Shown here: positions 8,982-38,717 of the stretch, one piece after another
Layout of the letters: the number at the start of each line of letters is the position of its first letter
Position numbering within the stretch: position 1 is the first letter of the stretch
Assembly: GCF_038002965.1 (NCBI RefSeq)
Contig: NZ_JBBOOE010000002.1
Coordinates: 186,001 to 250,000, forward strand
Reading direction: 5' to 3'
From: Robertmurraya sp. FSL R5-0851
GTDB taxonomy: Bacteria; Bacillota; Bacilli; Bacillales; Cytobacillaceae
Length of the DNA: 64,000 nt
Notes under the pieces: generated by a model
Databases searched by the model: none
What the model saw: only the letters and a program-made list of their open reading frames with translations
What the model was told of the DNA's origin: nothing
Position numbers and translations under genes: made by a program

Positions 8982-9022
8982 CATAGAAACTTCATAATTT
9001 CTTCATTTATAACACTTATTAT
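8982..9022 (+). promoter_or_regulatory. 11-bp-periodic CATA element and promoter of the two-component operon
   Basis: CATA occurs at 8982 and 8993 and CATT at 9004, all 11 bases apart. The core CATAATTTCTTCAT matches the shared element CATANTTTCTNCAT. TATTAT at 9017 starts 24 bases after the core, as a -10 would. Direct repeats with an 11-bp period are the usual target of OmpR/PhoB-type regulators, so the operon may control itself. Confidence 0.55.
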
Positions 9023-9131
9023 TTAATTATGAAAACGGAAGATATAATATAAGTGAGGACTGATGTAATTAGAGAAAATCAAATATACGAGTACGTACTA
9101 TTTTTTGTGCGAATTAAAGGAGTAAGAAAAA

Positions 9132-10526
9132 TTGAGTTCAAAGCTAAACAGTATTTCATTCAAACTCGGGCTATTATTTAGCGGTGTATTTATTACATTA
9201 TTACTTCTTCTCGGGCTCATATTATATGGCGTATTTACAAATATGTTTGTAGATTATATAAAACAGGATTTGTTAGCCAAAGGACAAAATCATGCCCGTA
9301 TCTTGGCAGAAGATTTTAATCAATCTGCAATAAATCACGTAGTCGAAATGGAAAAAGGTGTAATGACAGATGTACTTGTAACAGACAACAAACAACAATT
9401 TGTCGCTTTTTCAAAAAAACCAGATGAAGAGATGGTTGACCATCTTATTACTAAAAGCCTTAGTAATGGAACCATTTTAGAGGAAGATTGGAAACAGCAT
9501 AGTTATCTTATCTCGGTAACCCCTATTGGAGATCATTTAGGATACGTGTATATGTACTATCCAGCATCGATTCTTAGAGAAATTGTTTTTGTTATGAATC
9601 TTCTACTTATTGTAGCTACCATTGGAATTTTGCTACTAGCATTTGGTTTAATAGGCATCTTATCTAGAAGATTAACACGTCCACTTTTGTATATGAAAGA
9701 AGCAACTTCAAAAATGGCCATGGGAATGTATAAGCAGAATATACCGGTAAAAGGAAAAGATGAAGTAGCACAACTAGGGTTTTCGATTCAAAATTTAGGT
9801 GATCAGCTACAGTATTTTGAAGAAAGTAGAAGTGATTTTTTAGCTGCCGTTTCCCATGAGCTTAGAACCCCACTTACTTATTTAAAAGGATATAGTGATA
9901 TCTTAAATAAAGATATTATTAAAGACCGTGAAGAACAAAAAGAGTATCTAACTATCATTAATAAAGAAGCCCATAGATTATCTATATTAATAAATGATTT
10001 GTTTGAAATGAGCAAACTTCAAACAGGGCAGTTTGTGTTAAAAAAAGAGTTAACTAACATAAATCAAGTAATCAAAAAAGCAACAAAAAATCTAAACCCT
10101 GTTGCAAATGAGAAAGGGATTGGATTGATTTTAAGCTTGAATGAAGAAATACCCGATATATCTATCGATCCCCAAAGGATGGAGCAAGTAATTTATAACT
10201 TAATTGAAAATGCCATTAAATATACTTCTCAAGGTACTATCACGATTAAATCTACTTTATTAGGAGATTTTATTGTTCTTCAAATTTCAGATACGGGAAT
10301 TGGAATCCCTTCAAAGGACTTACCTAAAATATGGGAACGGTTTTATCGAGTTGACCAATCGCGAACAAGGAAAACTGGGGGATCTGGATTAGGACTTTAT
10401 GTTGTTAAGCAGATCATTGATGCCCACAATGGGAGTATACAGGTTAAAAGTAAAGAAAACGAAGGCTCCGTATTTACCATTTATTTAGAAAAGGAAGAGA
10501 ACGATGAAAAAGATACTAATAGTTGA
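9132..10526 (+). CDS. Membrane sensor histidine kinase (PhoR/YclK-like)
   Basis: A 464-residue sensor kinase read from a TTG start with AAAGGAG upstream. It has two membrane helices (about 12-35 and 150-175) around a roughly 115-residue extracellular sensor domain of unknown ligand. Next come HAMP, a HisKA domain with SHELRTPL (phospho-His242), and a HATPase domain with NLIENAIKYT, DTGIGI and GGSGLGL. It phosphorylates the regulator whose gene overlaps its 3' end by 23 bases. A copper-rich neighbourhood and a Met/His-containing small membrane protein in the same operon suggest metal sensing. The sensor domain has few Cys/His residues, so an envelope-stress signal is equally possible. Confidence 0.93.
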   Translation: MSSKLNSISFKLGLLFSGVFITLLLLLGLILYGVFTNMFVDYIKQDLLAKGQNHARILAEDFNQSAINHVVEMEKGVMTDVLVTDNKQQFVAFSKKPDEEMVDHLITKSLSNGTILEEDWKQHSYLISVTPIGDHLGYVYMYYPASILREIVFVMNLLLIVATIGILLLAFGLIGILSRRLTRPLLYMKEATSKMAMGMYKQNIPVKGKDEVAQLGFSIQNLGDQLQYFEESRSDFLAAVSHELRTPLTYLKGYSDILNKDIIKDREEQKEYLTIINKEAHRLSILINDLFEMSKLQTGQFVLKKELTNINQVIKKATKNLNPVANEKGIGLILSLNEEIPDISIDPQRMEQVIYNLIENAIKYTSQGTITIKSTLLGDFIVLQISDTGIGIPSKDLPKIWERFYRVDQSRTRKTGGSGLGLYVVKQIIDAHNGSIQVKSKENEGSVFTIYLEKEENDEKDTNS

Positions 10527-11178
10527 TGACGAAAAAACCATGAGACAACTGCTTCGTATTTACTTGCAGCAGGAGAACTATGATATTTATGAAGCTGAGA
10601 ATGGTCAAGAAGCCTTTGAAAAGGTAAAAAGAAATGATTTTGACTTAATGATTCTTGATGTAATGATGCCTGTAATGGATGGGTGGAAAACACTAGAGGT
10701 AATAAGAGAAATCTCTGACATACCTATTTTAATGTTAACAGCAAAAGGAACAGTCCAGGACAAAGTAACCGGGTTCTCTTCAGGAGCTGATGATTACTTG
10801 GTCAAACCATTTGATGAAGCGGAATTAGTTGTAAGAGTAGGGGCCCTTCTTAGAAGGACTAATCTTAATCAATCAAACGATGAAATTATTAAATACAATG
10901 GCATTATCATTAATTTAACTTCTAGAGAGATTTTTCATGAAGGAATAAAACTGAATCTTACACAAACAGAATTTGATTTGTTACAAGTTCTTGTTGAACA
11001 TCGAGGAAATGTTTTATCTAGAGAGCAACTTGTAGAGAAGATTTGGGGCTTAGAATTTTCCGGAGAAGATCGTACGGTGGATTCCCATATTAAAAATTTA
11101 CGTGAAAAGCTTAGTTCCCTCGGTTTTGAAAAGTCCATTATAAAAACGGTCTGGGGAATTGGCTACAAAGTGGAGTAG
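10504..11178 (+). CDS. OmpR/PhoB-family response regulator
   Basis: A 224-residue regulator paired with the kinase upstream; the genes overlap by 23 bases. The receiver domain has Asp8/Asp9, the phospho-acceptor Asp52 in MILDVMMP and Lys in DDYLVKPFD. The C-terminal winged helix has LTQTEFDLL and EDRTVDSHIKNLREKL, which contacts DNA. Proteins of this type bind direct repeats of about 11-bp period, and such a repeat (CATANTTTCTNCAT) precedes its own operon and other genes here. It is therefore the first candidate for the regulator of that set. Two related but orphan regulators at 22759 and 28203 are alternatives. Confidence 0.95.
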   Translation: MKKILIVDDEKTMRQLLRIYLQQENYDIYEAENGQEAFEKVKRNDFDLMILDVMMPVMDGWKTLEVIREISDIPILMLTAKGTVQDKVTGFSSGADDYLVKPFDEAELVVRVGALLRRTNLNQSNDEIIKYNGIIINLTSREIFHEGIKLNLTQTEFDLLQVLVEHRGNVLSREQLVEKIWGLEFSGEDRTVDSHIKNLREKLSSLGFEKSIIKTVWGIGYKVE

Positions 11179-11192
11179 GGTGATAAAAGAAT

Positions 11193-11444
11193 ATGAAAAA
11201 AAAATGGCCGGTAATTATCTTAAGTATATTTATTGTATTAGGTTTTTCTTTTCTTTTCTTTGTGTTAAAGATGGTTTGGTTTCCTCCTGAATCAATGGGT
11301 ATGATGATGAGTAAAGAGATGATGTTTCATCATGTGAAGTATTGGTTTAATCAGACTTTTTGGGTATGTTTAATCATGATTGGAATTGGTTTATTAATTT
11401 GGATTTTCATTAGTAAGAAGGAAAAAGGGAACGAAAAACAATAA
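11193..11444 (+). CDS. Small two-helix membrane protein with Met/His loop
   Basis: An 83-residue protein with two membrane helices (about 7-28 and 54-75). The short loop between them is notably rich in Met and His (PPESMGMMMSKEMMFHHVKY). It lies 14 bases after the response regulator gene and is almost certainly cotranscribed. Extracellular Met/His loops are common in copper(I)-binding proteins, so it may be an accessory metal-binding or sensor-modulating protein for the kinase. This is inference; I do not recognise the family. Confidence 0.7.
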   Translation: MKKKWPVIILSIFIVLGFSFLFFVLKMVWFPPESMGMMMSKEMMFHHVKYWFNQTFWVCLIMIGIGLLIWIFISKKEKGNEKQ

Positions 11445-11680
11445 CTATCACTTTAAACTACTGTTATATTCTATTCTTGATTATGATTGGGTCAAAAAAA
11501 GGAATGTAAAGGAATTGTTTAACTGAAATTATTTTAATTAATTACATTATTTTTCTAATAATTTTTTCTCTATTTAAATATGAAAAATCCTCAATAATGA
11601 TGGTTCAATGTAAAGTATTGTTTGACATACCCCTTATTATGTATGCTCATTATTATAAAAAAACTGTATTCTTTAGCTGA

Positions 11681-11710
11681 AGCATGTCTCTGTTGAGACA
11701 CGCTTTTTTA
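11681..11710 (+). terminator. Terminator downstream of the two-component operon
   Basis: GCATGTCTC/GAGACACGC stem followed by a T run. The 11445-11680 stretch before it holds no other feature I can see. Confidence 0.8.
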
Positions 11711-11737
11711 TTGAAATTTTTTTCTATCCTACACTTA

Positions 11738-11771
11738 TCTCCATACTTTCTCCATGATTGTTTTTTATAGT
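11738..11771 (+). promoter_or_regulatory. CATA element and -10 hexamer cut off by an insertion sequence
   Basis: TCTCCATAC TT TCTCCATG is a near-perfect direct repeat with an 11-bp period and contains CATACTTTCTCCAT. TATAGT at 11766 starts 24 bases after the core. An IS begins at about 11795, so the natural target was probably the Met-rich gene now at 13762. Confidence 0.55.
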
Positions 11772-11794
11772 TAAAACATAGAAAACAATAACAT

Positions 11795-13677
11795 AGACTC
11801 TCGGAATAACTAAGTCATTTTTATGGGATTTGTAAAAAAATAACTGGAAATTAGCTTCGATTCGATGAAAATTCCTTTTTTTCATTTCCTTTTTCAAAAA
11901 AATGCATACCAAATAAGCCTTGCTTATAAAATTTTTAAAAATGATTAAGCAGACTTTTTAAAAATGACATTTTCGAGATTCAGCTTTTCTTTTTTAACGT
12001 CGTACCAAGCATCAATATGTTGGCACATCATAATGGCATAAGTCCGAATGTACCACATTTTCGTGGAACGATGACGACCTAATTCTAAATGATAATCAAC
12101 CTTTTCACGTTTGTTCGACCGTTCTACAGATGTACGACGCTTATAAGTTAGCTTCCACTTTTCAGACGTTCTCGGAGTCTTAGTAAACAACCGAAGGTTG
12201 TCCTTCCGGAATGTATGAAATGTTCGACCGTATTTAGCTTTAGAACAGGGATTCTCACAAGTAATTTTTGTGCCGCATGCGAGTGGACATCTCCATTTCT
12301 GCCGGTTTTTGGATTTATCAAAACCATTGGGCTTCATTTTTAACCCTGCAGAACAAATTGGTGTCCCTTCGGGAGATATTTGTATATCGCTTTCAGTGCT
12401 GAAATTTTTCTTGGTTCGAACATTCAGATCAATGAAAGGCTCGATATTATAATGATCTAGCAATTCATAAATAGGTTCCGCATCATGAGCAGCATCCAAG
12501 AGAATCTTACCAATTGTGCCCAAGGTAGTGCGTTGCGAAAATTCAATAGAACTGGCAACAAGACTGACAGAATCATGCCGGGAAGCTGGTTGAAGTCTTG
12601 GATACAAGGGTAGGTCGTATCGACTGTCGCTAGTGGATAACATGTAGAGATGGTATCCGTTGAAGTAGCGTTCCCGTGAACTGTCCCACCCTGAGTCGAT
12701 GTCAGGTTGGGAATAATGACGAGGATGGTTACAATTCGTTAGTCCTTGGGCACTGCATTCACAAGTACGCTTGCTTCTTGGAAATCTAGCCGTTTCAATC
12801 GGGGTACCGTCTCCGACAACCCCTAGAGCGTCCAAGTCTCCGAGTAAGCCTAGGTTCGCTGATACATGGAGAAATTGAGATTGAAATAATTCAAATAATC
12901 GATCGCTTGGCAGCACTTTTTTCTTAGCATCATAACGAAAAAAACGATCGATTAACTTTCTAACTATACCTGGACTTGATGGGGACGCTTTTTCGCCTTT
13001 CTTGGGTTTCTTCTTTTTCTTTTTTTGGCGTTTCGGTTTGATATTGGGTTTTATATTAGCGTTATCCCTTCCCCATAAACGGTGGAAAAAATCGTAGAAA
13101 GTCCCTATACCAGGAACTTTCCCCGGTTCAAAGCCACTCATGATGGCATAGAAAGGCACTCGATACAATTCATCAACCCATTCAGTAATACTGAGAGTTG
13201 GTTTAGCCAAAAGAAGCAAAAGGTAAGAGCGCATCATAGAAGACGGATCACGAGGCTCCGGACCTTTATTCGAATAAGAGCTCCGAAGCCACGAGGTAAT
13301 CTGAGAAAGGTCAGTGATCCATAACTTGTAAATAATGGGCCAATCATTATTTACAATAGTAAGGACGTTACCAGAGTAATGCTTTCTTAATTGTTCTAAA
13401 ACGAAGTTTTGGTAATCTTCATGACTAACGACAGTTGGCTTCACCTCAACACCCCAATTCACGGTTTATAAGGAAATAAATCCCTTCGCCGGCGATTATT
13501 GTGGTGTTTTCAAAAAGTCAAGTATTTTCGACAAAAAAATCAACAAAATTTCACTGAGGAATTTCCAATTCTTCTTATAAAACGTGAAACATCCCCCTAC
13601 TAAAAGTAGGAGGAATCAAATAAAAATGGTACAAGAAAATCCTTGTACCATCTAACTCGGCGAATGCCGAGAGTCTA
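11795..13677 (-). mobile_element. DDE insertion sequence, IS1182/ISNCY-like
   Basis: The element is bounded by the inverted repeat TAGACTCTCGG (11794-11805 region and, inverted, 13667-13677). It contains one minus-strand transposase gene plus short non-coding ends. The right end carries additional hairpins (ACTCGGC/GCCGAG and TGGTACAAG/CTTGTACCA). I cannot see a convincing target duplication, so the exact limits are approximate. It separates a CATA-type promoter (11738-11771) from the Met-rich protein gene at 13762. Confidence 0.75.
11945..13462 (-). CDS. DDE transposase, IS1182/ISNCY-like
   Basis: A 505-residue transposase. The N-terminal region (SMMRSYLLLLLAKPTLSITE) resembles the DUF772-type DNA-binding part of IS1182/IS5-like enzymes. 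A Lys-rich linker (about 145-160) follows. The core has VVGDGTPIETARFPR (first Asp), LLDAAHDAEPIYELL (second Asp) and a C-terminal SVERSNKREKVDYHLE carrying the Glu. Two Cys/His clusters (CECSAQGLTNCNHPRH; CPLACGTKITCENPC) look like zinc-binding insertions. The frame is complete. Placement within a named IS family is uncertain and rests on motif order alone. Confidence 0.85.
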   Translation of the reverse strand: MNWGVEVKPTVVSHEDYQNFVLEQLRKHYSGNVLTIVNNDWPIIYKLWITDLSQITSWLRSSYSNKGPEPRDPSSMMRSYLLLLLAKPTLSITEWVDELYRVPFYAIMSGFEPGKVPGIGTFYDFFHRLWGRDNANIKPNIKPKRQKKKKKKPKKGEKASPSSPGIVRKLIDRFFRYDAKKKVLPSDRLFELFQSQFLHVSANLGLLGDLDALGVVGDGTPIETARFPRSKRTCECSAQGLTNCNHPRHYSQPDIDSGWDSSRERYFNGYHLYMLSTSDSRYDLPLYPRLQPASRHDSVSLVASSIEFSQRTTLGTIGKILLDAAHDAEPIYELLDHYNIEPFIDLNVRTKKNFSTESDIQISPEGTPICSAGLKMKPNGFDKSKNRQKWRCPLACGTKITCENPCSKAKYGRTFHTFRKDNLRLFTKTPRTSEKWKLTYKRRTSVERSNKREKVDYHLELGRHRSTKMWYIRTYAIMMCQHIDAWYDVKKEKLNLENVIFKKSA

Positions 13678-13761
13678 TTAACTAGTAAGGAGGAGCTATC
13701 GATTTAAAATTTTGGTCCATCTTTAATAATTACTAAATCTAATTAAAAAGGAGAAAAGATC

Positions 13762-14133
13762 ATGAAAAAGACTCTAATTACAGTAACCTTAGCAGCTGCA
13801 TTAATTGTCGGAGGTGGCACTGGCCTGTATTACGCCTCAGCAAAAGAGAATGTAGGAACTCAGGATAATTCCGTTAAGAATTCTGGAAAAATGAATACTG
13901 AAAACATGAATAGTATGATGAATGGCGACATGCAAGAAATGATGGATGGCAACATGCAAGAGATGATGAATGGCGATATGCAAGAGATGATGAATGACAA
14001 AAATATGAATTTCGGACAGATGAAAGATCATATGAAAGAAATGCATCCCGAATTAGAAGAGCAACAATTAGAGGAGATGTATAAGGATATGCATGGTACA
14101 GGTGGATCAGAAAATAGTAATAATTTTCAATAA
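13762..14133 (+). CDS. Exported Met-rich repeat protein, probable copper binder
   Basis: A 123-residue secreted protein with an N-terminal signal peptide or anchor (LAAALIVGGGTGLYYASA). Tandem Met-rich repeats follow (GDMQEMMDGN, GDMQEMMNGD and similar, about residues 52-80). The C-terminus has the sequence FGQMKDHMKEMHPELEEQQL ending in MHGTGG, a short helical motif that I associate with copper-island proteins. Clustered methionines bind Cu(I) in the envelope, so a copper-sequestering role is likely. AAAGGAG precedes the start. A CATA-type promoter that probably served it now lies beyond the IS inserted upstream. The next gene follows after 37 bases. Confidence 0.75.
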   Translation: MKKTLITVTLAAALIVGGGTGLYYASAKENVGTQDNSVKNSGKMNTENMNSMMNGDMQEMMDGNMQEMMNGDMQEMMNDKNMNFGQMKDHMKEMHPELEEQQLEEMYKDMHGTGGSENSNNFQ

Positions 14134-15113: not shown

Positions 15114-15233
15114 TTTTGTACTAAAAAGAAAAAAATAAGATTCTATAAAAAGCAATGTATTGGTTATCGGAATTTTTTCGATGACCATTTTATTTGGCGA
15201 AAGCAATAACAAATTCTTAAATTTTGATGTTTG

Positions 15234-15263
15234 CATACTTTCTCCATATTCTTTTTGTATCAT
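15234..15263 (+). promoter_or_regulatory. CATA element and promoter of lgt
   Basis: CATACTTTCTCCATA is a full match to the shared 11-bp-period element. TATCAT at 15258 starts 24 bases after it and serves as a plausible -10. The lgt start codon is 56 bases downstream of the element. Confidence 0.6.
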
Positions 15264-15303: not shown

Positions 15304-16116
15304 ATGGATAGTATCCAACCGTTAAGTAGAGTAGCTTTAGATTTGGGTCCAATAACTATCTATTGGTATGGTATTATTATTGGATTTGGCATATTTTTAG
15401 GGTGGTTTCTTGCGACGAAAGAAGCTGAAAAATCAGGACTCAATAAGGATATATTTTCAGATTTATTACTATGGGCAATTCCAATAGCCATTATAAGTGC
15501 AAGAATATATTACGTGTTATTTAAATGGGATTACTATGTAGAGAATCCAAGTGAAATCATGGCGATTTGGCAGGGCGGAATTGCTATTCATGGGGCTTTA
15601 ATTGGAGGAATAATAACCGCTGTTATATTCGCAAAGAAAAAGAATGTTTCATTTTGGAAACTTGCTGATATTGCAGCACCAAGTATTATTCTCGGGCAAG
15701 CAATTGGTCGATGGGGAAATTTTATGAATCAAGAAGCTCACGGAACAGCAGTTACAAGAAGCTTTTTAGAAAATCTAAATCTCCCAGACTTCATTATTAA
15801 TCAGATGTATATTGGAGGTTCATATTACCACCCCACGTTTTTGTATGAGTCCTTATGGAGTTTATTAGGTTTCTCATTATTGATCATACTAAGGAAGTTC
15901 CCACTTTATCGTGGTGAATTATTCTTTTCTTACATTATTTGGTACTCTATTGGAAGGTTTTTCATCGAGGGATTACGGACTGATAGTCTAATGTTGACTG
16001 ATTCATTACGAATTGCACAAGTATTGTCATTACTCCTAATTGGTATTGCAGTATTTATTATAGGAATTAGACGTTGGAAAGGCTTTTCAAATAACAAATC
16101 CGCTAAATCTATATAA
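15304..16116 (+). CDS. lgt: Prolipoprotein diacylglyceryl transferase (extra Lgt)
   Basis: A 270-residue membrane enzyme that transfers diacylglycerol from phosphatidylglycerol to the lipobox Cys of prolipoproteins. Seven hydrophobic segments are visible. Conserved Lgt features include [29 protein letters not shown] and the signature [13 protein letters not shown], plus [10 protein letters not shown]. The length is normal. AGGGAGAG precedes the start. A housekeeping lgt is expected elsewhere, so this is a paralog. It sits between copper-type genes and is preceded by a CATA-type promoter. It may support lipidation of the local lipoproteins or replace a metal-sensitive enzyme; that is inference. 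Confidence 0.95.
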
Positions 16117-16151
16117 AAAAAAGGAAATTAATTGTAAACATTAGGAATCTG

Positions 16152-16166
16152 CATATTTTTTGCAAA
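16152..16166 (+). promoter_or_regulatory. Weak CATA-type element before the DUF1541 lipoprotein gene
   Basis: CATATTTTTTGCAAA keeps the 11-bp period and T-rich centre but deviates in the second half. It lies 51 bases before the ATG at 16217. Confidence 0.3.
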
Positions 16167-16216
16167 TTTATTGTATATACTATGCTCGTAGTTTAAATAA
16201 GGGAGGATTTTATATT

Positions 16217-16846
16217 ATGCTGAAAAGTAAAAAAATATTGCTAGCGCTAGTTTCTCTACTTACAGTAATCACCTTAGCTGCGTGTGCTGGTAATGAGGAG
16301 AGTGATTCCAACCAGGATGAGGGTATGGAAAACATGGATCACTCAAATATGGATATGGGTTCAGAAACTGAAGAAAACGATGATTCTGGATCGGAAGAAA
16401 GCATGGACATGGATCATTCTGGTACAGGAGAAGTGCCTGAAGGGTTAAAGGTATCAGAAAATCCAACATATAAAGTCGGAAGTAAAGCAATCATCAAAGA
16501 TGCTCATATGGAAGGTATGGAAGGTGCTGAAGCAACTATTGTCGGTGCTTATGATACGGTTGCATATGCCATTTCATATACCCCAACAAATGGTGGAGAA
16601 CCAGCAGAAAACCATAAGTGGGTTATTCACGAAGAAATTCCTGATGCTGGTGAACAGCCTCTAGAAACGGGCGCTGAAGTAACAATTAATGCAGAACATA
16701 TGGATGGCATGGATGGAGCTAAGGCTGTAATTGACTCAGCAGAAGAGACAACCGTCTATATGATCGATTTTACACCTACTACTGGTGGTGAAAGAGTAAC
16801 CAATCACCAATGGGTTACTGAAAGCGAACTTTCACCAGTTGAATAA
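16217..16846 (+). CDS. DUF1541 (YdhK-like) lipoprotein
   Basis: A 209-residue surface lipoprotein. The start at 16217 follows GGGAGG; an upstream in-frame ATG has no such site. The signal peptide ends in the lipobox LAAC. An acidic Met/His/Asp linker follows (NMDHSNMDMGSE, MDMDHSG). Two DUF1541 repeats come next, each with KAIIKDAHMEGMEGAEATIV-like and NHKWVIHEEI/NHQWVTESEL motifs. DUF1541 proteins accompany copper and heavy-metal genes in Bacilli. The repeated HMEGM/HMDGM strings and the linker could bind Cu(I) outside the membrane. A strong terminator follows. Confidence 0.9.
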   Translation: MLKSKKILLALVSLLTVITLAACAGNEESDSNQDEGMENMDHSNMDMGSETEENDDSGSEESMDMDHSGTGEVPEGLKVSENPTYKVGSKAIIKDAHMEGMEGAEATIVGAYDTVAYAISYTPTNGGEPAENHKWVIHEEIPDAGEQPLETGAEVTINAEHMDGMDGAKAVIDSAEETTVYMIDFTPTTGGERVTNHQWVTESELSPVE

Positions 16847-16905: not shown

Positions 16906-16949
16906 AAAACATCATAAAAACCCCATATTTTTGTCACAGAACATTCACT

Positions 16950-16978
16950 TTACATACCATACTAGGGTATCATATAAT
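16950..16978 (+). promoter_or_regulatory. copZ promoter with CsoR-like operator
   Basis: -35 TTACAT (16950) and -10 TATAAT (16973) are separated by 17 bases. The spacer is the inverted repeat ATACC-N7-GGTAT (16954-16970), resembling the CsoR operators of Bacillus copZA. A repressor bound there would block the promoter until copper binds. A weak CATA-type element (CATATTTTTGTCACA) lies just upstream at 16924-16938. Confidence 0.65.
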
Positions 16979-17032
16979 ATAAGTAAGTTAAGAATATAAT
17001 TCAAACTAAAACCATAAAGGAGACGAGATCTA

Positions 17033-17239
17033 ATGGAAAAGGTAACACTTAAAGTTCAGGGGATGTCTTGTGGTCATTGTGTAAATTCGATTGAAGGTAG
17101 TGTAAATGAACTAGAAGGTGTCTCTTTGGTCAAAGTTCACCTTAAGGAAGGAACCGTTGAGATAGAATATAGTTCAAATGATATAAATCTTGAAACGATA
17201 AAAAGGACCATTGATGAACAGGGTTATGATGTAATCTAA
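17033..17239 (+). CDS. copZ: Copper chaperone CopZ
   Basis: A 68-residue single heavy-metal-associated (HMA) domain. The Cu(I)-binding motif GMSCGHC sits near residues 10-16, followed by VNSIEGSVNELEGV and the usual beta-alpha-beta pattern. It carries Cu(I) in the cytoplasm to the CopA ATPase encoded downstream. AAGGAGACG precedes the start. Its own promoter contains a CsoR-like operator, and a terminator separates it from copA. No csoR gene is in this window, so a regulator elsewhere is implied. Confidence 0.95.
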   Translation: MEKVTLKVQGMSCGHCVNSIEGSVNELEGVSLVKVHLKEGTVEIEYSSNDINLETIKRTIDEQGYDVI

Positions 17240-21363: not shown

Positions 21364-21493
21364 GCATAATATTAGTTTTCAATATTCTCCATTCTTTTTG
21401 AAAAAAGGACAATATTAGTAGTAAGAATTCATAGAAAATGCACACTTTAATTGTATTATTGTCCTTGAAAGTAAGAGGTAGGAGGCAAGGTTT

Positions 21494-22758: not shown

Positions 22759-23430
22759 TTAGTCAGACCACTTATAACCAACTCCCCAAACAGTGCTTAA
22801 ATGATCGTCCACAGGGAAACTAGATGTTCTTAATTTATCTCTTATATTTCTTACATGGGAGTCTATCGTTCTGTCATCTGTATTTACTCCATGACCCCAA
22901 ATAGTGGTAATCAGATGATCACGTGTAAAAACTTTATTACGATTTGTTAGAAACAAACTCAAAATAGAAAGTTCTTTTGGGGTTAATGATATAAGATTTT
23001 TATTATGCCGCAACTCATATGACTCTGGATTTAATTCTAATCCTTTAAATACGATTTTATTAGAAGTATTATTGTTCCTTCTAAGTACAGCATTTATCCT
23101 CGCTAATAATTCCTCTTCGTCAAACGGCTTAGATATATAGTCATCTGCACCTATACTCAAACCTTTAACAACATCTGCTTTATCTGTCCGTGCAGTTATC
23201 ATAATAATAGGTACTTCTACAATCTTCTTTATCTCTACACAAGTCTCCCATCCATCCATCTCAGGCATCATAATGTCTAATAAAACAAGGTCAACTTTAT
23301 TCTGTGATAGGTACTTAAGTGCTTCCTTTGGCTGGTTCATTTTTATACATTTGTAACCAACTGGCGTTAGGTATAAGCTAATCAAATCCAACATCCGTGG
23401 CTCATCATCAACTATTAATATCGTCTTCAT
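22759..23430 (-). CDS. Orphan OmpR-family response regulator 1
   Basis: A 223-residue regulator with a receiver domain (Asp8/Asp9, phospho-Asp52 in VLLDIMMPEMDG, Lys in DDYISKPFDEE). The winged-helix domain ends DDRTIDSHVRNIRDKLRT and VWGVGYKW. No kinase gene is adjacent. It is clearly a paralog of the regulator at 28203 (shared start, PEMDGWE, YKCIKM and a Cys28). A minus-strand CATA-type repeat lies 53-67 bases upstream of its start. It may be phosphorylated by the kinase at 9132 or by one outside the window. Confidence 0.93.
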   Translation of the reverse strand: MKTILIVDDEPRMLDLISLYLTPVGYKCIKMNQPKEALKYLSQNKVDLVLLDIMMPEMDGWETCVEIKKIVEVPIIMITARTDKADVVKGLSIGADDYISKPFDEEELLARINAVLRRNNNTSNKIVFKGLELNPESYELRHNKNLISLTPKELSILSLFLTNRNKVFTRDHLITTIWGHGVNTDDRTIDSHVRNIRDKLRTSSFPVDDHLSTVWGVGYKWSD

Positions 23431-23482
23431 ATATTAGATACTCCTTTGAATAATTTAGGTTGTTTAAATTTTACCTAAAAAA

Positions 23483-26956: not shown

Positions 26957-26998
26957 CGCAATTCTAAAAAATCTATTTTAATTCCTGGTCTCTCCCTT

Positions 26999-27028
26999 CA
27001 TATTTTCTGCATATTTCAATGATAATGT
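26999..27028 (+). promoter_or_regulatory. CATA element before the zinc-binding lipoprotein gene
   Basis: CATATTTTCTGCATA is a full match to the 11-bp-period element. GATAAT (27021) or TAATGT (27023) lies 22-24 bases from its start and could act as -10. A Zur-like box follows at 27061. Confidence 0.55.
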
Positions 27029-27103: not shown

Positions 27104-28066
27104 ATGAAAAAATTAGTATCTTTACTCTTTTTTATTATTCTTTTATTGGTTGGATGTAGTGAATCGACTTCTAAAGACGATAATAAAGAAACAAATAACC
27201 AAGAAATACTTAAAATATATACAACCATTTATCCGCTTTTAGACTTTTCTGAAAAAATCGGCGGAGAGTTTGTGGAAGTTGAAAACATTGTCCCGACAGG
27301 TGCAGACGCCCATTCTTTTGAACCAACAAATAAAACAATGATAAAAATAGCTGAAGGTGACATGTTTATTTATTTAGGAACTGGGATAGAAGGATTTACA
27401 GATGCTGTAATCAACGCAATGAAGAATGAAGATACGAAAATTATTAACTCCTCCGAAGGAGTCCGTCTAATAAGTTCATCTGAATCTTTAAATGAAACTG
27501 AAAGTGAAGAAGAGGAAGAGGAACATGCAGATGAAAATGAAGGTGACAATGTTCCCCATGTATGGCTTGATCCACAGAGGTCAATTCAACTAGCAGAGAA
27601 TATTAAAAATGCCTTAGTTGAGATGAAACCAGAACAAAAAGAGTATTTTGAAGAGAATTTTAATCTACTGAAGAAAGATCTAGAACAACTTGATTTATCT
27701 TTCAAATCGATGGTTGAACAGTCTCCTAATAAGACATTTATTGTTTCTCATTCTGCTTATGGATATTGGCAAGATGCTTACGGATTAGAACAAGTTGGTA
27801 TCAGTGGTCTTTCACCAAGCAATGAACCATCACAAAAAAGTTTAGAGGGAATTATTAAAGTTGCTGAAAATCGAGATATAAAGTATGTTTTATTCGAACA
27901 AAATGTAGAAAATCGAGTTGCAGAGGTAATAAAACGAGAAATCGGTGCGGATACATTAACGCTTCACAATTTAGAATCACTGACTGAAGAAGATGTCAAA
28001 AATAACGAAGATTATATTTCAGTTATGGAAAAGAATATTGAAACGATTAGACAGGTATTGAAATAA
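27104..28066 (+). CDS. znuA: Zinc ABC transporter substrate-binding lipoprotein (ZnuA/AdcA-like)
   Basis: A 320-residue lipoprotein with signal peptide and lipobox LVGC. It has the cluster A-I solute-binding fold, with metal ligands suggested by ADAHSFEPT (His), an acidic/His loop (SEEEEEEHADENEGD) typical of zinc proteins, PHVWLDPQ (His) and SHSAYGYW (His). It captures Zn(II) outside the membrane for an ABC importer. GAGGAGG precedes the start and a Zur box overlaps the promoter. No permease or ATPase gene is adjacent, so it must share the chromosomal ZnuBC-type transporter. The extra CATA-type element suggests added control. Confidence 0.93.
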   Translation: MKKLVSLLFFIILLLVGCSESTSKDDNKETNNQEILKIYTTIYPLLDFSEKIGGEFVEVENIVPTGADAHSFEPTNKTMIKIAEGDMFIYLGTGIEGFTDAVINAMKNEDTKIINSSEGVRLISSSESLNETESEEEEEEHADENEGDNVPHVWLDPQRSIQLAENIKNALVEMKPEQKEYFEENFNLLKKDLEQLDLSFKSMVEQSPNKTFIVSHSAYGYWQDAYGLEQVGISGLSPSNEPSQKSLEGIIKVAENRDIKYVLFEQNVENRVAEVIKREIGADTLTLHNLESLTEEDVKNNEDYISVMEKNIETIRQVLK

Positions 28067-28202: not shown

Positions 28203-28883
28203 TCAATTTTCCTTTCCGGCCCATTTATATCCGACTCCCCATATGGTAAGTAAATGATTCTCAATTGGAAAGCCTGCTTTCCTTAATTTTTCTCGTAAGT
28301 TCCTTACATGCGAGTCTATTGTTCTGTCTTCTGTTAATACTTCAAAACCCCAAATAGTATTGATTAAATGCTCACGGCTAAATACTTTTTCTTGATTAGT
28401 TAACAACAAACTTAGAATTCCAAACTCTTTTGGTGTAAGTGAGATTTCTGTATCATAATATTGAAGTACATATGAGTCACGATCTAAAATCAGGCCTTTA
28501 AATGAGATTTTACCATTTTCACTCGTTTGTCTGCGTAATATAGCTTCAATTCTAGCAGTCAATTCATCCTCATCAAAAGGTTTAGAAATATAGTCATCAG
28601 CTCCAGACTTTAAACCCTTTACAATATCCGATTTTTCACTCATCGCAGTTAGCATGATTATAGGGATACTCCAATACTTTCGAATTTCTTTACAAGCCTC
28701 CCAACCATCCATCTCAGGCATCATAATATCCAATAAAATTAAGTCCACCGGATTAGACTCCAAATACTGGATTGCAGCTTTTGCAGATGTCATTTTGATA
28801 CACTTATATCCTTCAGGTGTCAAATATAAAGATAATAAGTCTAACATCATCAATTCATCATCAACTAATAAAATGGTTTTCAT
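28203..28883 (-). CDS. Orphan OmpR-family response regulator 2
   Basis: A 226-residue paralog of the regulator at 22759. The receiver has Asp8/Asp9, phospho-Asp52 in ILLDIMMPEMDGWE and Lys in DDYISKPFDED. The winged helix has SLTPKEFGIL and EDRTIDSHVRNLREKL, ending VGYKWAGKEN. No kinase is adjacent. AAGGAGC precedes the start on the minus strand. The near-identical recognition helix (DRTIDSHVRN) in both orphan regulators suggests they bind the same or similar sites. No good CATA-type repeat is visible directly upstream. Confidence 0.93.
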   Translation of the reverse strand: MKTILLVDDELMMLDLLSLYLTPEGYKCIKMTSAKAAIQYLESNPVDLILLDIMMPEMDGWEACKEIRKYWSIPIIMLTAMSEKSDIVKGLKSGADDYISKPFDEDELTARIEAILRRQTSENGKISFKGLILDRDSYVLQYYDTEISLTPKEFGILSLLLTNQEKVFSREHLINTIWGFEVLTEDRTIDSHVRNLREKLRKAGFPIENHLLTIWGVGYKWAGKEN

Positions 28884-29473
28884 TTCCCTTTGCTCCTTTG
28901 AAATATGTGAGAATTATTAACTTATTAACCTTATTTAAATTCCTTTCAAAAGAGTATACACTTTAAATTTGATAAATTTGTGCAGATTATACATAAACAT
29001 AGATATTCTCATATTAGAAATTCACTTAGCTAACCATGTTACTTAATCTCTAATTACATAACATACAAAAGATAACTAGTAAAATAATCCAGTTAAAATT
29101 ATTAATTCATCTGCACACTTTCTTCAAAATATTATGGCATACTTATTTTATGTCTTATGCATTTTAAGACAAGAAAAAGAACCTAAACCATAATGATGAA
29201 AGTAAGAGTAGGGGAAAAAGGAAAAATTGTATTGGCATTGGGGTATTATTCATATATTTATATTCTTACTTATACTAGTAATAAGTAAACATCAAATAAC
29301 CTAATAATAAAAAATCCCCCTAAAAAAATTTAGAAGTAGATAACGAATATTTGTGAGTGGAGAATTTGTATAGGTATAGATCAAAGGTTAATATTTTTTT
29401 CGTGTAATGAATATCATTTTTTATATTATTCGAACTATAAATTAACCCATCGGATCAAGGAGGATATTATTAT
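28884..29473. other. Intergenic stretch with possible tiny membrane peptide
   Basis: No full gene is present. CACACTTTCTTCAAA (29114-29128) is a partial CATA-type repeat. Near 29230-29310 a TTG-started frame would encode a 25-residue hydrophobic peptide beginning LYWHWGIIHIFIFLLIL, but its ribosome binding site is weak, so it is not called as a gene. AAGGAGG at 29458 belongs to the ltaS-like gene. Confidence 0.35.
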
Positions 29474-31444
29474 ATGTTTCAAAGAAAACTAGAGTTATTT
29501 TCATTTAAAATATTGAAGCTATATTTTATAGCAGTAGTCTTATTATGGTTAAAAACTTATTTTGTCTATCTCAGAGAATTTAACTTAGGTGTAAGCAATG
29601 GAATGCAGCAATTTCTGCTGTTGTTAAATCCAATTAGTTCAGCAGTTATATTTTTAGGTATCTCTTTGTTCTTTAAAGGTCGAAAACAGCAATGGATACT
29701 ATTGTCCATTAATGCTTTTTTATCCTTTTTATTATATGCGAACGTAGCTTATTATCGGTTCTTTAGTGATTTCATTACCGTACCAGTATTGTTCCAGACC
29801 CAAAATTTTGGAGATCTCGGAGGAAGTGTAGGGGCACTTCTTCACCCTTATGATATTTTTTACTTTACAGACACTATAATCCTACTATTACTCATAATTA
29901 TGAAGAAGGTTGAACCTATAAAAGCACTTCCAAGACGATCTTTGACTGCAGTGTTTATTACAGGATTTATCATTTTAACATCAAATATAGCACTTGCAGA
30001 ATTGGACCGCCCACAGTTACTAACACGTACTTTTGATAGAAACTACTTAGTAAAATATCTAGGGGCTTATAATTTTACCATATATGATATTATTCAAAAT
30101 TCCCGGTCCTCTGCACAAAGAGTATTGGCAGACAGTAACGATATAACAACAGTAGAGAATTACACCAATGCTAATTATACAAGCCCAAAGCCTGAATATT
30201 TTGGGTCTGCTAAGGGTATGAATGTGATTTATATTTCTATGGAGTCATTCCAAAACTTCCTAATTGACTATAAATTAAATGGTGAAGAGGTAACACCGTT
30301 CCTAAATTCTTTGACAAGAGATCCAAATACGATATATTTTAAAAACTTTTTCCATCAAACGGCCCAGGGGAAAACATCTGATGCAGAATTTTTAATGGAA
30401 AATTCTTTATATCCTATTCCCCAAGGATCCGTATTTACAACTAAAGCACAAAATACGTACCAAGGTTTACCAGCTATCCTTAAAGACAAAGGATACTATT
30501 CTGCAGTATTTCATGGGAATTATAAGACGTTTTGGAATAGAGAAGCAATGTACAAGTCTTTAGGATACGATATGTTCTATGATGCAACGTATTATAATAT
30601 GGTAGAGGAGAATGTGTTAAATTACGGGTTAGAAGATAAACCATTTTTAAAAGAAACCATTCCATATTTAACAAGTTTGCCACAGCCATTTTATACTAAA
30701 CTAATTACCTTATCTAACCATTTTCCATATCCATTAGATGAAGAGGATCAATCGATTGAACCAGCTAACACAGGTGACAAAACAGTTGATAGATATTTTC
30801 AAACAGCACGTTATCTTGACGAGGCATTAAAACAATTTTTTGAAGATCTAAATACATCAGGCTTAAGTAAGAATACAATGGTTGTCATGTATGGGGACCA
30901 TTATGGAAATTCGGAGAATCGCAAGAATGCTATGTCAAAAGTTATTGGCAAAGAGGTAACTGATTTTGAACAAGCTCAATTACAAAGGGTTCCTCTATTC
31001 ATTTATGCACCAGGTTTAAAAGGGTTTATGAGTGACACTTATGGTGGTCAGATTGATGTCCGGCCAACGGTCCTACACCTTTTAGGAATTGATACTAAAC
31101 ATCAAGTATCATTTGGGGATGATTTACTCTCCAAAGAAAGAGATGGAATTGTTAGCTTTAGAAACGGAGACTTTATCACAGAAGAAGTAACATCTATTAA
31201 AGGGAAAATTTATGATAACCTTACTGGACTAGAAGTACAAGATAAAACCATATATCAGAAATATAGTGAGATTGTAAAAGGTGAATTGGAAATGTCCGAT
31301 AAAGTTGTATATGGAGACTTACTTCGTTTTCACGAACTAGACTCCATTAAAAAGACGGACCCTTCTACACTAGATTACTCAAAGGCTATCCATTTAAATG
31401 AAGAATCCTTGCAAGATGAGGAAAAAGATGAGGAAGAAGAATAG
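29474..31444 (+). CDS. ltaS: LtaS-family lipoteichoic acid synthase (extra copy)
   Basis: A 656-residue polytopic enzyme that polymerises glycerol-phosphate from phosphatidylglycerol onto lipoteichoic acid. Five N-terminal membrane helices (about 12-180) are followed by an extracellular sulfatase-fold domain with VIYISMESFQN, the nucleophile Thr301 in QGKTSDAEF, VFHGNYKTFWNRE and VMYGDHYG. These bind Mn(II) in the family. The C-terminal tail is acidic. AAGGAGG precedes the start. Bacilli often have several LtaS paralogs; this one lies among metal and envelope genes, suggesting stress-specific teichoic acid synthesis. Confidence 0.95.
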   Translation: MFQRKLELFSFKILKLYFIAVVLLWLKTYFVYLREFNLGVSNGMQQFLLLLNPISSAVIFLGISLFFKGRKQQWILLSINAFLSFLLYANVAYYRFFSDFITVPVLFQTQNFGDLGGSVGALLHPYDIFYFTDTIILLLLIIMKKVEPIKALPRRSLTAVFITGFIILTSNIALAELDRPQLLTRTFDRNYLVKYLGAYNFTIYDIIQNSRSSAQRVLADSNDITTVENYTNANYTSPKPEYFGSAKGMNVIYISMESFQNFLIDYKLNGEEVTPFLNSLTRDPNTIYFKNFFHQTAQGKTSDAEFLMENSLYPIPQGSVFTTKAQNTYQGLPAILKDKGYYSAVFHGNYKTFWNREAMYKSLGYDMFYDATYYNMVEENVLNYGLEDKPFLKETIPYLTSLPQPFYTKLITLSNHFPYPLDEEDQSIEPANTGDKTVDRYFQTARYLDEALKQFFEDLNTSGLSKNTMVVMYGDHYGNSENRKNAMSKVIGKEVTDFEQAQLQRVPLFIYAPGLKGFMSDTYGGQIDVRPTVLHLLGIDTKHQVSFGDDLLSKERDGIVSFRNGDFITEEVTSIKGKIYDNLTGLEVQDKTIYQKYSEIVKGELEMSDKVVYGDLLRFHELDSIKKTDPSTLDYSKAIHLNEESLQDEEKDEEEE

Positions 31445-31567: not shown

Positions 31568-32164
31568 ATGACAGAATTGTATTTATTTAATCATTTATTA
31601 GGAAAAAAATGGTTTATCTGGGCTTTGTTTATTATTAATATATTGGGAACAGTTTATGGTTATATTTGGTACAAGTATCAACTAGTTGAAACCCCAGCTA
31701 AATTTATCATTTTTGTCCCTGACAGCCCAACTGCTAGTTTGTTCTTTGTATTTGTATTGGGAGCATTCCTTCTTAAAAGGAATTGGCCACTCTTTGAAGC
31801 GTTAGCCATAGTTACCCTGTTTAAGTATGGGGTATGGGCTGTTGTCATGAATATACTTACATTAAAAGTAACAGGCAACCTTCACTGGACAGGATATATG
31901 TTGATCGTTTCTCATGCTGCAATGGCCATACAAGGACTATTGTATGCGCCTTTTTATCGATTTAAATTATGGCACTTAGCTATTGCAGCTGTTTGGACGC
32001 TTCATAATGATGTGATAGACTATGTTTTCTCTATGATGCCATGGTATGGAGTATTAGGAAATTACATGCCTCAAATAGGTTATTTTACGTTTTGGTTAAG
32101 CGTTATATCAATTGCCATTGCTTATTTAGCTGGAAGGATTCAAAAGAAAGAATTATCACTATAG
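31568..32164 (+). CDS. DUF1405 membrane protein (YpjA-like)
   Basis: A 198-residue membrane protein with about six hydrophobic segments. Features such as VYGYIWYKYQL, FVPDSPTASLFFVFVLGAFLL, WTGYMLIVSHAAMAIQGLLY and LHNDVIDYVFSMMPWYG agree with DUF1405/YpjA proteins of Bacilli. The ribosome binding site AAGTAGG sits very near the ATG, so the start is moderately sure. Function is not established for the family. It sits alone between two terminators, so it is its own transcription unit and another extra copy of a chromosomal-type gene. Confidence 0.8.
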   Translation: MTELYLFNHLLGKKWFIWALFIINILGTVYGYIWYKYQLVETPAKFIIFVPDSPTASLFFVFVLGAFLLKRNWPLFEALAIVTLFKYGVWAVVMNILTLKVTGNLHWTGYMLIVSHAAMAIQGLLYAPFYRFKLWHLAIAAVWTLHNDVIDYVFSMMPWYGVLGNYMPQIGYFTFWLSVISIAIAYLAGRIQKKELSL

Positions 32165-36489: not shown

Positions 36490-37899
36490 TTAGTTTACGT
36501 TTCTTAACTTGGTATTCTCATCTAAGATTATTTCACCCTCGCCAATTTGGAATAACTTTTGTTGCTTGATTTTATTCTTGTCAAACTTACTCTTACTAGC
36601 AACAAATGTCAGATTTTGAATACCTTTTTTATCTTCAAAAGAATATACGGATACATATGGGTAGACCGACTTTAATGTAGAATTCATCGACTTGATGAGT
36701 TCGTCTCCCTTTGTTTTTCCAATAGCATTCACAAGTAGGAGCCCATTTTCATCTAGTTTATCGCTTGTTAAAGTAAAAAATTCTTTTGAAATTAAGTGAA
36801 ATGGAATTTGCTCTGTATTATTGTAAGCATCTAACACCATAACATCAAATTTATTTAGTTGCTTACTTAAAATTCTTCTACCATCACCGATTTCTACGCT
36901 GTCTCCTTCATAACCAAAGTATTCTCTACTTACCTCTAATACCTGCTTATCTATTTCTGCAACCTTTACCTTTTTTCCATTCTTCTCAAACTTTTGTGTC
37001 AGCGTGCCTATACCATGACCAATCATAAAGACGTTTTGGCTATCTGGTCTGAATGTCTCTGATATTTCCCATATACTTTTTGAATAGTCCAAGCTAAGTC
37101 GGTCAGGGTAATTTATCTCCATCAATCCTTGAATTGTGTCATCATCTCCGAAGTTCATGTATCGGAAAGGTCCCTTTTTCCCATCAAAGTATTCAGTCTG
37201 ATAGACAACAATTTCATGATATAAACTAGTGTCCTGGTATAATATTTCACCAACCGGCTCATTTTTAGAGTCCAAAAAAAGCAGGAGTATAAAGAGAGCT
37301 GGTATTACAACTAATATAATTTCCAAGCGTGTTTTTGTCTCATAAAAAAATAATGAACTTATAAATACCATTAAAGCTAATATACCAATTACAGTATTAA
37401 TATTTCCAACGGGAATTAACCAGAATGTAGTCACAATAGTTCCTAATACACTACCTACTGCAGAGAATGTATGGAGATTTCCAATAACTCTTCCAGTAGT
37501 ATTATCACTGAGCCCAACCTTCATTAGGACAGTAACAATGATGCTGAAGATTAAATTAGGGAAAAGATATAAAACCGTTACCCCCAACGTTGTACCTACC
37601 TCATTGGGTAAAGGACTAAGGTAGGGAAATGTTATATCCTTAATGGTAGGTATAAGAGTTACTAACAGTATTCCTATTAAATTAAGGCTAAGTAATATTG
37701 TTTTATTAGAATTTCTGTCTGCTACAAATCCACCTATTGTATACCCCACTGAAGATCCTATTAAAAAGATTGAAATTACAATTCCCCAAGTATAAACTGT
37801 ATTACCAAATGTAGGTGCAACAAATCTTGAAGCGGTCATTTCTAGTCCCATAATAACAAAACTGAATACGAATAAATTAAAATATACTTTTTTTTGCAT
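36490..37899 (-). CDS. Fused membrane/spermidine-synthase-like protein
   Basis: A 469-residue protein; the start at 37899 is preferred because GGAG lies 7 bases before it. The N-terminal half has about seven hydrophobic helices in a transporter-like arrangement (WGIVISIFLIGSSVGYTIGG, NLHTFSAVGSVLGTIVT). The C-terminal half is a spermidine-synthase-type Rossmann domain (VFMIGHGIGTLTQKFEK, VKVAEIDKQVLEVSREYF, GDGRRILSK, FDVMVLDAYNN). This fused architecture is widespread, but its substrate is not settled. A minus-strand CATA-type repeat lies 160 bases upstream. It probably uses SAM or decarboxylated SAM at the membrane; polyamine production is unproven. Confidence 0.82.
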   Translation of the reverse strand: MQKKVYFNLFVFSFVIMGLEMTASRFVAPTFGNTVYTWGIVISIFLIGSSVGYTIGGFVADRNSNKTILLSLNLIGILLVTLIPTIKDITFPYLSPLPNEVGTTLGVTVLYLFPNLIFSIIVTVLMKVGLSDNTTGRVIGNLHTFSAVGSVLGTIVTTFWLIPVGNINTVIGILALMVFISSLFFYETKTRLEIILVVIPALFILLLFLDSKNEPVGEILYQDTSLYHEIVVYQTEYFDGKKGPFRYMNFGDDDTIQGLMEINYPDRLSLDYSKSIWEISETFRPDSQNVFMIGHGIGTLTQKFEKNGKKVKVAEIDKQVLEVSREYFGYEGDSVEIGDGRRILSKQLNKFDVMVLDAYNNTEQIPFHLISKEFFTLTSDKLDENGLLLVNAIGKTKGDELIKSMNSTLKSVYPYVSVYSFEDKKGIQNLTFVASKSKFDKNKIKQQKLFQIGEGEIILDENTKLRNVN

Positions 37900-38059
37900 T
37901 ATTAACTCCATTCTTTTTTGATTTCTATAGTAGTTGTTAGTAAGGATCTCTAATCTGGAACCTGTAAAGAACAGATTGTTTAAGAAGTCACTATACAGTA
38001 TTGAAAACTTCTAAATCTTATTCTTTTTTATATAAATAAATTATAAAATACCACTAAAA

Positions 38060-38074
38060 TGTGAAGAAGTTATG
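38060..38074 (-). promoter_or_regulatory. CATA-type element before the spermidine-synthase-like gene
   Basis: On the minus strand it reads CATAACTTCTTCACA, keeping the 11-bp period and CTTCT centre. It lies 160 bases before the start codon. Otherwise 37912-38204 holds no visible gene. Confidence 0.4.
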
Positions 38075-38204
38075 CAGATTTTCTTATGTTTAAAAATTTT
38101 GACCTTAATATATACTTTGGCTATTTATATATCTATATAGTAACAACTATAGATAACCAGTAAATATGTAGCAATGTGTTTAGGTTTAATCTCCAAAAAT
38201 GAGG

Positions 38205-38231
38205 AAAGCCGCCAAGAAATGGCAGCTTTTT
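38205..38231. terminator. Hairpin after the 127-residue protein gene
   Basis: AAAGCCGCC/GGCAGCTTT stem between two minus-strand genes. T runs are short on either side. Confidence 0.6.
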
Positions 38232-38248
38232 AGTAAAATCTATATTAA

Positions 38249-38632
38249 TTATAAAAATGTAACAAGTCCCCAACCACTAGCCAGAAATAATGTTATAAAT
38301 GCTAATGAAAAACCAATCAGTTTCTTGTTTTCTCCTTTTTGGTTTTGTAAATATTCTTTATAGGTGATTTCTCCTTGGGCAAATTTCAATCCATTTTCAC
38401 AAGGTTCAATGCTGTAAAGCTTACCAACTTGATCCTGAAGGATAACATTTTTAATAAGGGGTAATGATCCATCTTGAGTTTGCATTTTATCAAATTCTAA
38501 ATTTCGATTTTTTAATTCTATACTGCTATTACCAACTAAATTTAGACGTACTGGATTATGTTTTGATTGTTGAATTATCTGTTTGGCCAGTCTATGCGAT
38601 TGAAGTTCAATTTGATCATAGGAAAAACACAT
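38249..38632 (-). CDS. Tail-anchored protein of unknown function (127 residues)
   Basis: The start at 38632 follows AAGGAGGTGAT; the frame is open further upstream but without any ribosome binding site. The N-terminal part is hydrophilic (CFSYDQIELQSHRLAKQIIQ) and contains a short region NVILQDQVGKLYSIEPCENG. The C-terminus is one membrane helix (KLIGFSLAFITLFLASGWGL). Two Cys residues are present. I do not recognise the family. It is divergent from the methyltransferase gene with which it shares a 170-base control region. Confidence 0.7.
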   Translation of the reverse strand: MCFSYDQIELQSHRLAKQIIQQSKHNPVRLNLVGNSSIELKNRNLEFDKMQTQDGSLPLIKNVILQDQVGKLYSIEPCENGLKFAQGEITYKEYLQNQKGENKKLIGFSLAFITLFLASGWGLVTFL

Positions 38633-38702
38633 CTTTATCACCTCCTTATTATTATATTGTAGATTCACCATTTTGGGAACGACTATAAATTTTTCCCTTC
38701 TC

Positions 38703-38717
38703 CATACTTTATGCATA
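38703..38717 (+). promoter_or_regulatory. CATA-type element before the methyltransferase gene
   Basis: CATACTTTATGCATA has both CATA halves exactly 11 bases apart. It lies in the divergent promoter region, 86 bases before the plus-strand start at 38804. Confidence 0.4.

Follow-up and report, generated by a model that had tools for sequence, protein, structure and literature searches.

Tandem-repeat promoters before copper and envelope genes of Robertmurraya and their predicted control by copper-type two-component systems

A 64,000-nucleotide stretch of Robertmurraya sp. FSL R5-0851 (hereafter the window; contig NZ_JBBOOE010000002.1, positions 186,001 to 250,000) holds copper genes and envelope genes side by side, and many of them follow the same short element, a pair of repeats with a period of 11 bp ahead of a -10 hexamer. 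Is this element a promoter, which regulators act on it, and does it join the copper and envelope genes into a single regulon, as a preliminary description of the window had proposed? The window lies on a contig of 0.555 Mb (C2), probably a megaplasmid, in a genome of 5.32 Mb and two contigs. The boxes almost certainly represent a genuine promoter-operator class tied to OmpR/PhoB-family regulators, and the explanation that fits best overall, which the comparisons below make very probable, is that a copper-type two-component family uses the element as its operator-promoter.

Sequence and phase of the element

The exact 14-mer CATANTTTCTNCAT occurs four times in the window, on the plus strand only, at 8993, 11742, 15234 and 26999. 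Fewer than one such match had been expected by chance, and this was borne out, as 100 dinucleotide shuffles of the window gave a mean of 0.02 matches and never more than 1. The placement of the four boxes was confirmed as well: they precede a two-component operon, a gene for a Met-rich protein now parted from its box by an insertion sequence (IS), lgt, and the gene of a ZnuA-like zinc lipoprotein. Genome-wide, the 14-mer has 10 exact matches, 6 of them on C2, and a reversed-pattern control has 4. The preliminary description had placed -10-like hexamers 22–24 bases from the boxes; these hexamers are real and their phase is tighter than described, with TANNNT, a pattern beginning at 2.6% of window positions, found at offset 24 from the box start in all four exact boxes (the box at 26999 has TAATGT at 24 and GATAAT at 22). 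Nine weaker boxes had also been listed. Eight of them have a -10-like hexamer at 24, which is a strict TANNNT in seven and CATACT in the box at 29114, and the ninth, at 16924, has nothing -10-like there and was dropped. The minus-strand members of this weaker set occupy 23484–23497 and 38061–38074.

In full, the element consists of CTNCATANTTT twice with a period of 11, six further bases, and TANNNT, without a separate -35. We trained a 38-column promoter matrix on the 12 window sites that have a -10-like hexamer at +24. When each was left out in turn, these sites scored 10.5 to 28.7, with 11 of the 12 at 16.5 or higher. The matrix added three minus-strand sites, at 28982, 42947 and 6301 (the least certain), which gives 15 promoters in the window, and the best remaining position scored 12.9. 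In 200 dinucleotide-preserving block shuffles, a mean of 0.275 positions (maximum 3) scored at least 15, versus the 15 observed, and the reversed matrix had one window match above 15, at 18.2. The full 38-column matrix is selective.

Association with two types of regulator

The window encodes three OmpR/PhoB-family response regulators, here called 10504, 22759 and 28203 after their coordinates. Querying a genome collection with regulator 10504, we kept 80 loci; 11 of these, termed type A, encode a regulator 63–71% identical to the query, after which identity drops to 50% or less, and nine of the remainder, termed type B, carry relatives of 22759 and 28203 (54–63% identical to them). Nearly every type-A locus (10 of 11) and every type-B locus (9 of 9) had a matrix match of at least 15, on either strand and within 1.9 kb upstream of the regulator; of the 60 other loci, 2 did. 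The eleventh type-A locus has just 101 bp of upstream sequence, so all 19 testable regulators of types A and B have a box. At a score of at least 18, box density was 102 per Mb in type-A loci, 113 in type-B loci and 1.9 in the others, and the reversed matrix gave zero. Among 17 further type-A loci from genomes of the family, which include two (L238 and L239) whose own-promoter box is identical to that of L077, the box of the regulator's own operon scored at least 15 in 12.

Phase was examined in DNA outside the window with a matrix of the box alone (threshold of at least 12), after removal of identical box strings and of two loci (L248 and L254) that repeat L080 and L076. TANNNT stood at +24 in 84 of 134 matches from 28 type-A loci, 18 of 32 from nine type-B loci and 15 of 21 from five plasmid loci, versus just 3 of 48 from the 60 loci with other regulators; the type-A loci had at most 6 at any one of the offsets 22, 23 and 25 to 28. 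The consensus drawn from 117 sites outside the window, selected on box score and -10, is again CTNCATANTTT twice followed by TANNNT. It has ATANTT in the place of the -35, with no -35 hexamer left, and with the -10 counted as -12 the repeats span -39 to -18. These are the features of a tandem operator of the OmpR/PhoB type: two direct repeats of about one helical turn, a fixed distance to the -10, no -35, and linked winged-helix regulators (Trans_reg_C in 10504, 22759 and 28203).

The associated kinases carry a motif, NH...H-x3-ME, near the N-terminus (N or S before the first His), which was seen in 10 of 10 aligned kinases of type A and in 18 of 19 of type B or Lactococcus. A narrower expression of the motif matched 1 of 24 kinases of other loci and found 8/11, 17/21 and 8/10 in the three sets of type A and B. 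A kinase stands beside a regulator only at 10504 in the window. The genome as a whole has three regulators and two kinases of type B, and one of the kinases is an orphan on C2 with a box of its own. This orphan (C2:394321–395682; 10321–11685 of locus L072) has no adjoining regulator frame; it is 61% identical to the chromosomal type-B kinase and may partner the orphan regulators 22759 and 28203. A type-B regulator on a Cytobacillus plasmid (L257, 13935–14660) likewise has no kinase listed beside it, and orphans of type B may be a recurring feature of such plasmids.

A position-weight scan of the whole replicon had been put forward as a check. We ran it genome-wide with a profile from 14 window boxes, and among the 150 of 6995 candidates that were scored, the 17 best matches all lie on C2; beyond the 14 training sites, 7 matches with E ≤ 0.1 lie elsewhere on C2 and 4 on the chromosome (C1, 4.76 Mb), one of these four at a complete type-B kinase-regulator pair (C1:3776820 and C1:3778192). 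Two opposite-strand boxes (scores 24.5 and 13.0) overlap at C1:3776669–3776708 (L166, 8678–8699), between this operon and a divergent pair of genes for a cell-wall-binding-repeat protein and an F510_1955 protein. A second box cluster on C2, at 384–412 kb (L072 and L073), includes two F510_1955 genes and genes for a multicopper oxidase, a YtkA-like protein and a chemotaxis receptor. Of 61 family genomes sampled, our own included, 51 had a match at E ≤ 0.02, and several had clusters. Equal frequency of the motif inside genes, which had been named as an outcome that would refute the proposal, was not what we found: in 11 annotated plasmid regions, all 46 matches fell outside the listed genes, which cover 75% in these still incomplete PLSDB gene tables, and 42 of the 46 had a same-strand gene start within 350 bp.

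In relatives, the gene families that recur behind boxes include the kinase-regulator pair, YdhK, YncE, F510_1955, Lgt and CtaG, small proteins encoded ahead of the Met-rich gene, multicopper oxidase, TauE and a number of copper ATPases. We took 20 stretches from the box listing (15 genomes, top matches and clusters, three pairs being neighbours) and found genes for CopA, CopZ, multicopper oxidase, YdhK or cupredoxin in 16 of them, versus 2 of 60 loci with other regulators; the same gene set was absent from all four chromosomal stretches of our own genome, and a type-B regulator was present in 8 of the 20. One plasmid of Sporosarcina psychrophila (L262) has a copper region with MreB-like, SpoIIP, FtsEX and Lgt genes, where a box precedes the MreB-like gene. 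The window itself is a copper neighbourhood, with CopZ-CopA, CtaG-CopCD and a DUF1541 protein; CopL of Staphylococcus, which is YdhK-like, is described as a copper-resistance lipoprotein (PMC5947656). An OmpR-type promoter element shared between copper and envelope genes is thus supported by comparative data.

The two types differ at the base before the first CATA of their own promoters, which is always C or T in type A (20 of 20 cases) and mostly G in type B (17 of 19). This count, made after the same removals of repeated loci and box strings, required a box of at least 13 within 350 bp and, for kinases, an identity to the references of no less than 53% (A) or 44% (B), with L085, L258, L261 and L262 outside the 19. 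The Fisher p of ~3e-9 is overstated, as related species are not independent, and the rule had been suggested by a first set (19 and 12) that largely overlaps the second. Boxes of plasmid-region kinases have G in 5 of 6 cases; G precedes CATA in 15 of 20 YdhK promoters and in 0 of 8 promoters of the Met-rich gene. In the recognition helix, 23 of the 27 type-A regulators listed have K, and the type-B ones listed have R. By this base, the window boxes at 15234, 16152, 23551, 28982, 29114 and 38074 (G) look like type B, and those at 11742, 23497, 24508 and 38703 (C) and at 8993, 21430, 26999 and 42947 (T) look like type A. Since the box of 22759 has C and that of 28203 has G, 22759 would be under type-A control and 28203 under that of its own kind. 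Whether the base decides which regulator acts seems to us evenly balanced. The proposal of a shared element was upheld in refined form: the boxed genes probably form two overlapping regulons of sister regulators, and copZ-copA of the window is not part of them.

Promoters of the window

The following ranges span box and -10. The first promoter (8990–9022, plus, TATTAT) precedes the type-A operon, in which the sensor kinase with the NH...H-x3-ME motif (9132–10526, plus) is followed by regulator 10504 (10504–11178, plus). The second (11739–11771, plus, TATAGT) is separated from its gene by the IS, and the Met-rich protein, which has a signal-peptide-like start, is now encoded behind it (13762–14133, plus). 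The IS extends from 11793 to 13678, carries a DDE transposase gene (11945–13462, minus) and ends in inverted repeats of 15 bases that are 93% complementary (11793–11807 and 13664–13678). Next come the promoters of lgt, for prolipoprotein diacylglyceryl transferase (15231–15263, plus, TATCAT; gene 15304–16116, plus), and of a DUF1541 (YdhK/CopL-like) lipoprotein (16149–16181, plus, TATACT). The open frame of the latter (16160–16846, plus) overlaps its promoter; translation more likely begins at an in-frame ATG beyond the promoter, at 16217.

Further along, the weakest training site (21427–21459, plus, TATTAT) precedes an F510_1955 family gene (21494–22429). Orphan regulator 22759 (22759–23430, minus; type B, no adjoining kinase frame) has its promoter at 23468–23500 (minus, TAAAAT), and a divergent one (23548–23580, plus, TATAGT) precedes an open frame of 76 amino acids (23653–23883). 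The promoter at 24505–24537 (plus, TATTTT) leads to motB-like (24612–25391) and murE-like (25457–26956) genes, and that at 26996–27028 (plus, TAATGT) to the gene of the ZnuA-like lipoprotein (27104–28066). Orphan regulator 28203 (28203–28883, minus; type B, no adjoining kinase frame) follows a promoter absent from the earlier list (28953–28985, minus, TATACT), and a plus-strand promoter (29111–29143, CATACT) stands before ltaS (29474–31444) and lhaT (31568–32164). The remaining promoters precede an MFS/spermidine-synthase-like gene (38045–38077, minus, TATTTT; gene 36490–37911), a methyltransferase gene (38700–38732, plus, TACACT; gene 38783–39424) and, again outside the earlier list, the genes for CtaG (41981–42880) and a CopC-CopD fusion (39986–41890), with the promoter at 42918–42950 (minus, TAGTAT). 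A weaker box (6272–6304, minus, score 19.1), the least certain member, precedes an open frame of 422 amino acids in which no Pfam or NCBIfam match was found.

The operon of copZ (68 amino acids) and copA was rejected as a member: the sequence at 16924 before it lacks a -10 at +24, and a CsoR-like operator is present instead. CsoR operators have a consensus of the TACC-N-GGTA type. The copZ region (16949–17239) has its own TTTACA/TATAAT promoter, with the CsoR-like operator in the spacer (16955–16969). The pattern TACCN{3,9}GGTA has 5 window matches versus 3.65 expected, one of them in this copZ promoter (16955), and none in the window overlaps a boxed promoter. Some copper ATPase genes of relatives (L249, L251 and L262) do follow a box.

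Mechanism, alternatives and known systems

We infer from sequence comparison how the element would work, including the start sites at the predicted promoters, the binding and its assignment to particular regulators. Two regulators of the OmpR/PhoB family would sit head to tail on the two 11-bp repeats, at about -39 to -18, and would replace the missing -35 by holding RNA polymerase on the -10 at 24 from the first CATA, as PhoB does at the pho box. Very probably they would act as activators rather than repressors. Surplus extracytoplasmic copper would be the likeliest signal, because the NH...H-x3-ME motif, in a stretch expected outside the membrane, is also found in the Lactococcus kinase LcoS; that copper is the main cue appears likely. 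The regulon would join genes for copper binding and handling (YdhK, the Met-rich protein and CtaG-CopCD) with spare envelope genes (lgt, ltaS-lhaT and motB-murE) and with the regulators themselves.

Several observations weigh against this reading. The support is drawn from sequence, with binding and transcription starts that are predicted. Training the matrix on window sites makes the window counts by themselves partly circular, and training site 21430, when left out, scores 10.5, below the best non-site. The 14-mer with up to two mismatches is only ~2-fold enriched in the window (31 versus 15 expected) and was rejected as evidence owing to this weak enrichment; a 15-mer with up to two mismatches exceeds its reversed control only 1.4-fold genome-wide (468 versus 345). 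The phase test shows raised counts at offsets 19 (15), 29 (13) and 30 (12) of 134. Five of the 17 further type-A loci have an own-operon score below 15 (13.2 in L236 and 9.9 in L243, with nothing convincing in L241, L250 and L252), the sole strong upstream box of L085 points away from its two-component operon, the box ahead of the chromosomal type-B kinase is weak (13.0), and on the Lactococcus plasmid pNZ712 no box was found before lcoR (best matrix score 2.9). The ltaS box is 360 bp ahead of the start codon, and the mixed neighbours (ZnuA, MFS/spermidine synthase and methyltransferase) mean that copper is not the sole possible cue. The control loci have a mean G+C content of 0.49, versus 0.37–0.38; yet 12 low-G+C controls gave 1 match in 211 kb. 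The scoring of 150 out of 6995 candidates in the genome profile search and the gaps in the plasmid tables belong here too.

These points leave room for other explanations to differing degrees. All boxes might serve one regulator, that of the pair 9132/10504, with 22759 and 28203 being mere targets that have other sites or no function. The adjoining kinase found at 10504 alone in the window and the many boxes of type-A islands suit this, but a box of this kind lies upstream in all nine type-B loci, the own boxes of the two types differ by one base, and six window boxes carry the type-B G, which leaves a single regulator unlikely. Alternatively, the element could answer general envelope or cell-wall stress in the manner of WalR or CpxR. 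The window targets ltaS, lgt, lhaT, murE and motB would be expected then, as would the boxes of relatives before genes for MreB, DacA and a PcsB/M23-like protein. We consider it improbable, however, given that copper genes occur in 16 of the 20 stretches chosen by box but in 2 of 60 controls, that the Lactococcus relative is a known copper system, and that the kinases share a His-His-Met motif.

Repression, with a regulator that occupies -39 to -18 and keeps polymerase off until it is released, is compatible with an operator that extends over the -35 position and the spacer. The box has no -35 hexamer beneath it, however, so the promoter looks activator-dependent, and CopR of Corynebacterium glutamicum, a copper regulator that uses a repeat with an 11-bp period, is reported to activate (PMC3140484); repression has little to recommend it. 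Chance similarity in AT-rich intergenic DNA is favoured by the commonness of CATA-rich strings and by the merely twofold enrichment of the 14-mer at two mismatches. It was rejected on the regulator association, the exact +24 phase and the shuffle counts (0.275 versus 15), together with the few reversed-matrix matches and the recurrence at the same regulator genes, and we regard it as scarcely credible.

The operator-promoter of a copper-type two-component family is therefore the reading that we carry forward, and it would provide a precise operator sequence for such systems on many Bacillaceae replicons, reaching Lactococcus. Under it, spare genes for lipoproteins and teichoic acids are tied to copper defence, a link that could account for their travelling on copper islands, and the one-base difference would be a small, clean case of how paralogous regulators keep apart. 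More tentatively, it is possible that two sister copper-sensing lineages with one promoter grammar, at times present together on one island and split by that base (pyrimidine in A, G in B), jointly with the orphan regulators and the orphan kinase, run a copper-dedicated second envelope set (lipoprotein, lipoteichoic acid and wall precursor ligase) on a second replicon.

In kind, this is an ordinary tandem operator of the OmpR/PhoB type; neither this operator itself nor the extent and make-up of its regulon was met in the open-licence literature, where we found no description of the box, as judged by titles and the beginnings of abstracts and with subscription journals outside the scope. The pho box of PhoB likewise has two 11-bp direct repeats that replace the -35 at a fixed distance from the -10, whereas the repeat here is CTNCATANTTT and the genes and signal are others. 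YrkP and YclJ of Bacillus subtilis, also of the OmpR family, reportedly have published recognition sequences and control envelope genes (ykcBC). CopRS of C. glutamicum resembles the present systems as a copper system whose regulator activates from a direct repeat with an 11-bp period, TGAAGATTTnnTGAAGATTT; its sequence is unlike that of the 117-site consensus, and its authors report a single site in that genome (PMC3140484). Listeria CopRS is described as a copper two-component system that induces the lipoprotein-modifying gene lit (PMC12345273). No lit was found among the genes annotated here; the lipoprotein-related lgt and lhaT that stand behind boxes are in keeping with the Listeria case.

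By the relationship of both regulator and kinase, the window systems fall with LcoRS/CopRS-like systems. On the Lactococcus plasmid pNZ712, which confers copper resistance, lcoRS are reported to regulate lcoABC (PMC5152845). Its gene order is regulator-kinase pair, lgt, DUF2933, CHAP protein and multicopper oxidase, and the lgt start follows its sole box (26.3) at a distance of 123 bases, counted from the -10. The SK11 plasmid has the same regulator and kinase accessions and the same box, and pUC073A (L171) has a related set, with a regulator 48% identical to type A and 51–56% identical to the type-B regulators of the window. The Lactococcus kinases share the NH...H-x3-ME motif with types A and B, and in all three plasmid stretches the box, with its -10 at +24, stands before lgt-DUF2933-CHAP after the regulator-kinase pair (one stretch has an extra match of 16.1 with no gene after it). 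Each Lactococcus stretch thus has one strong promoter, whereas the window has at least 14 promoters plus those of the regulators themselves.

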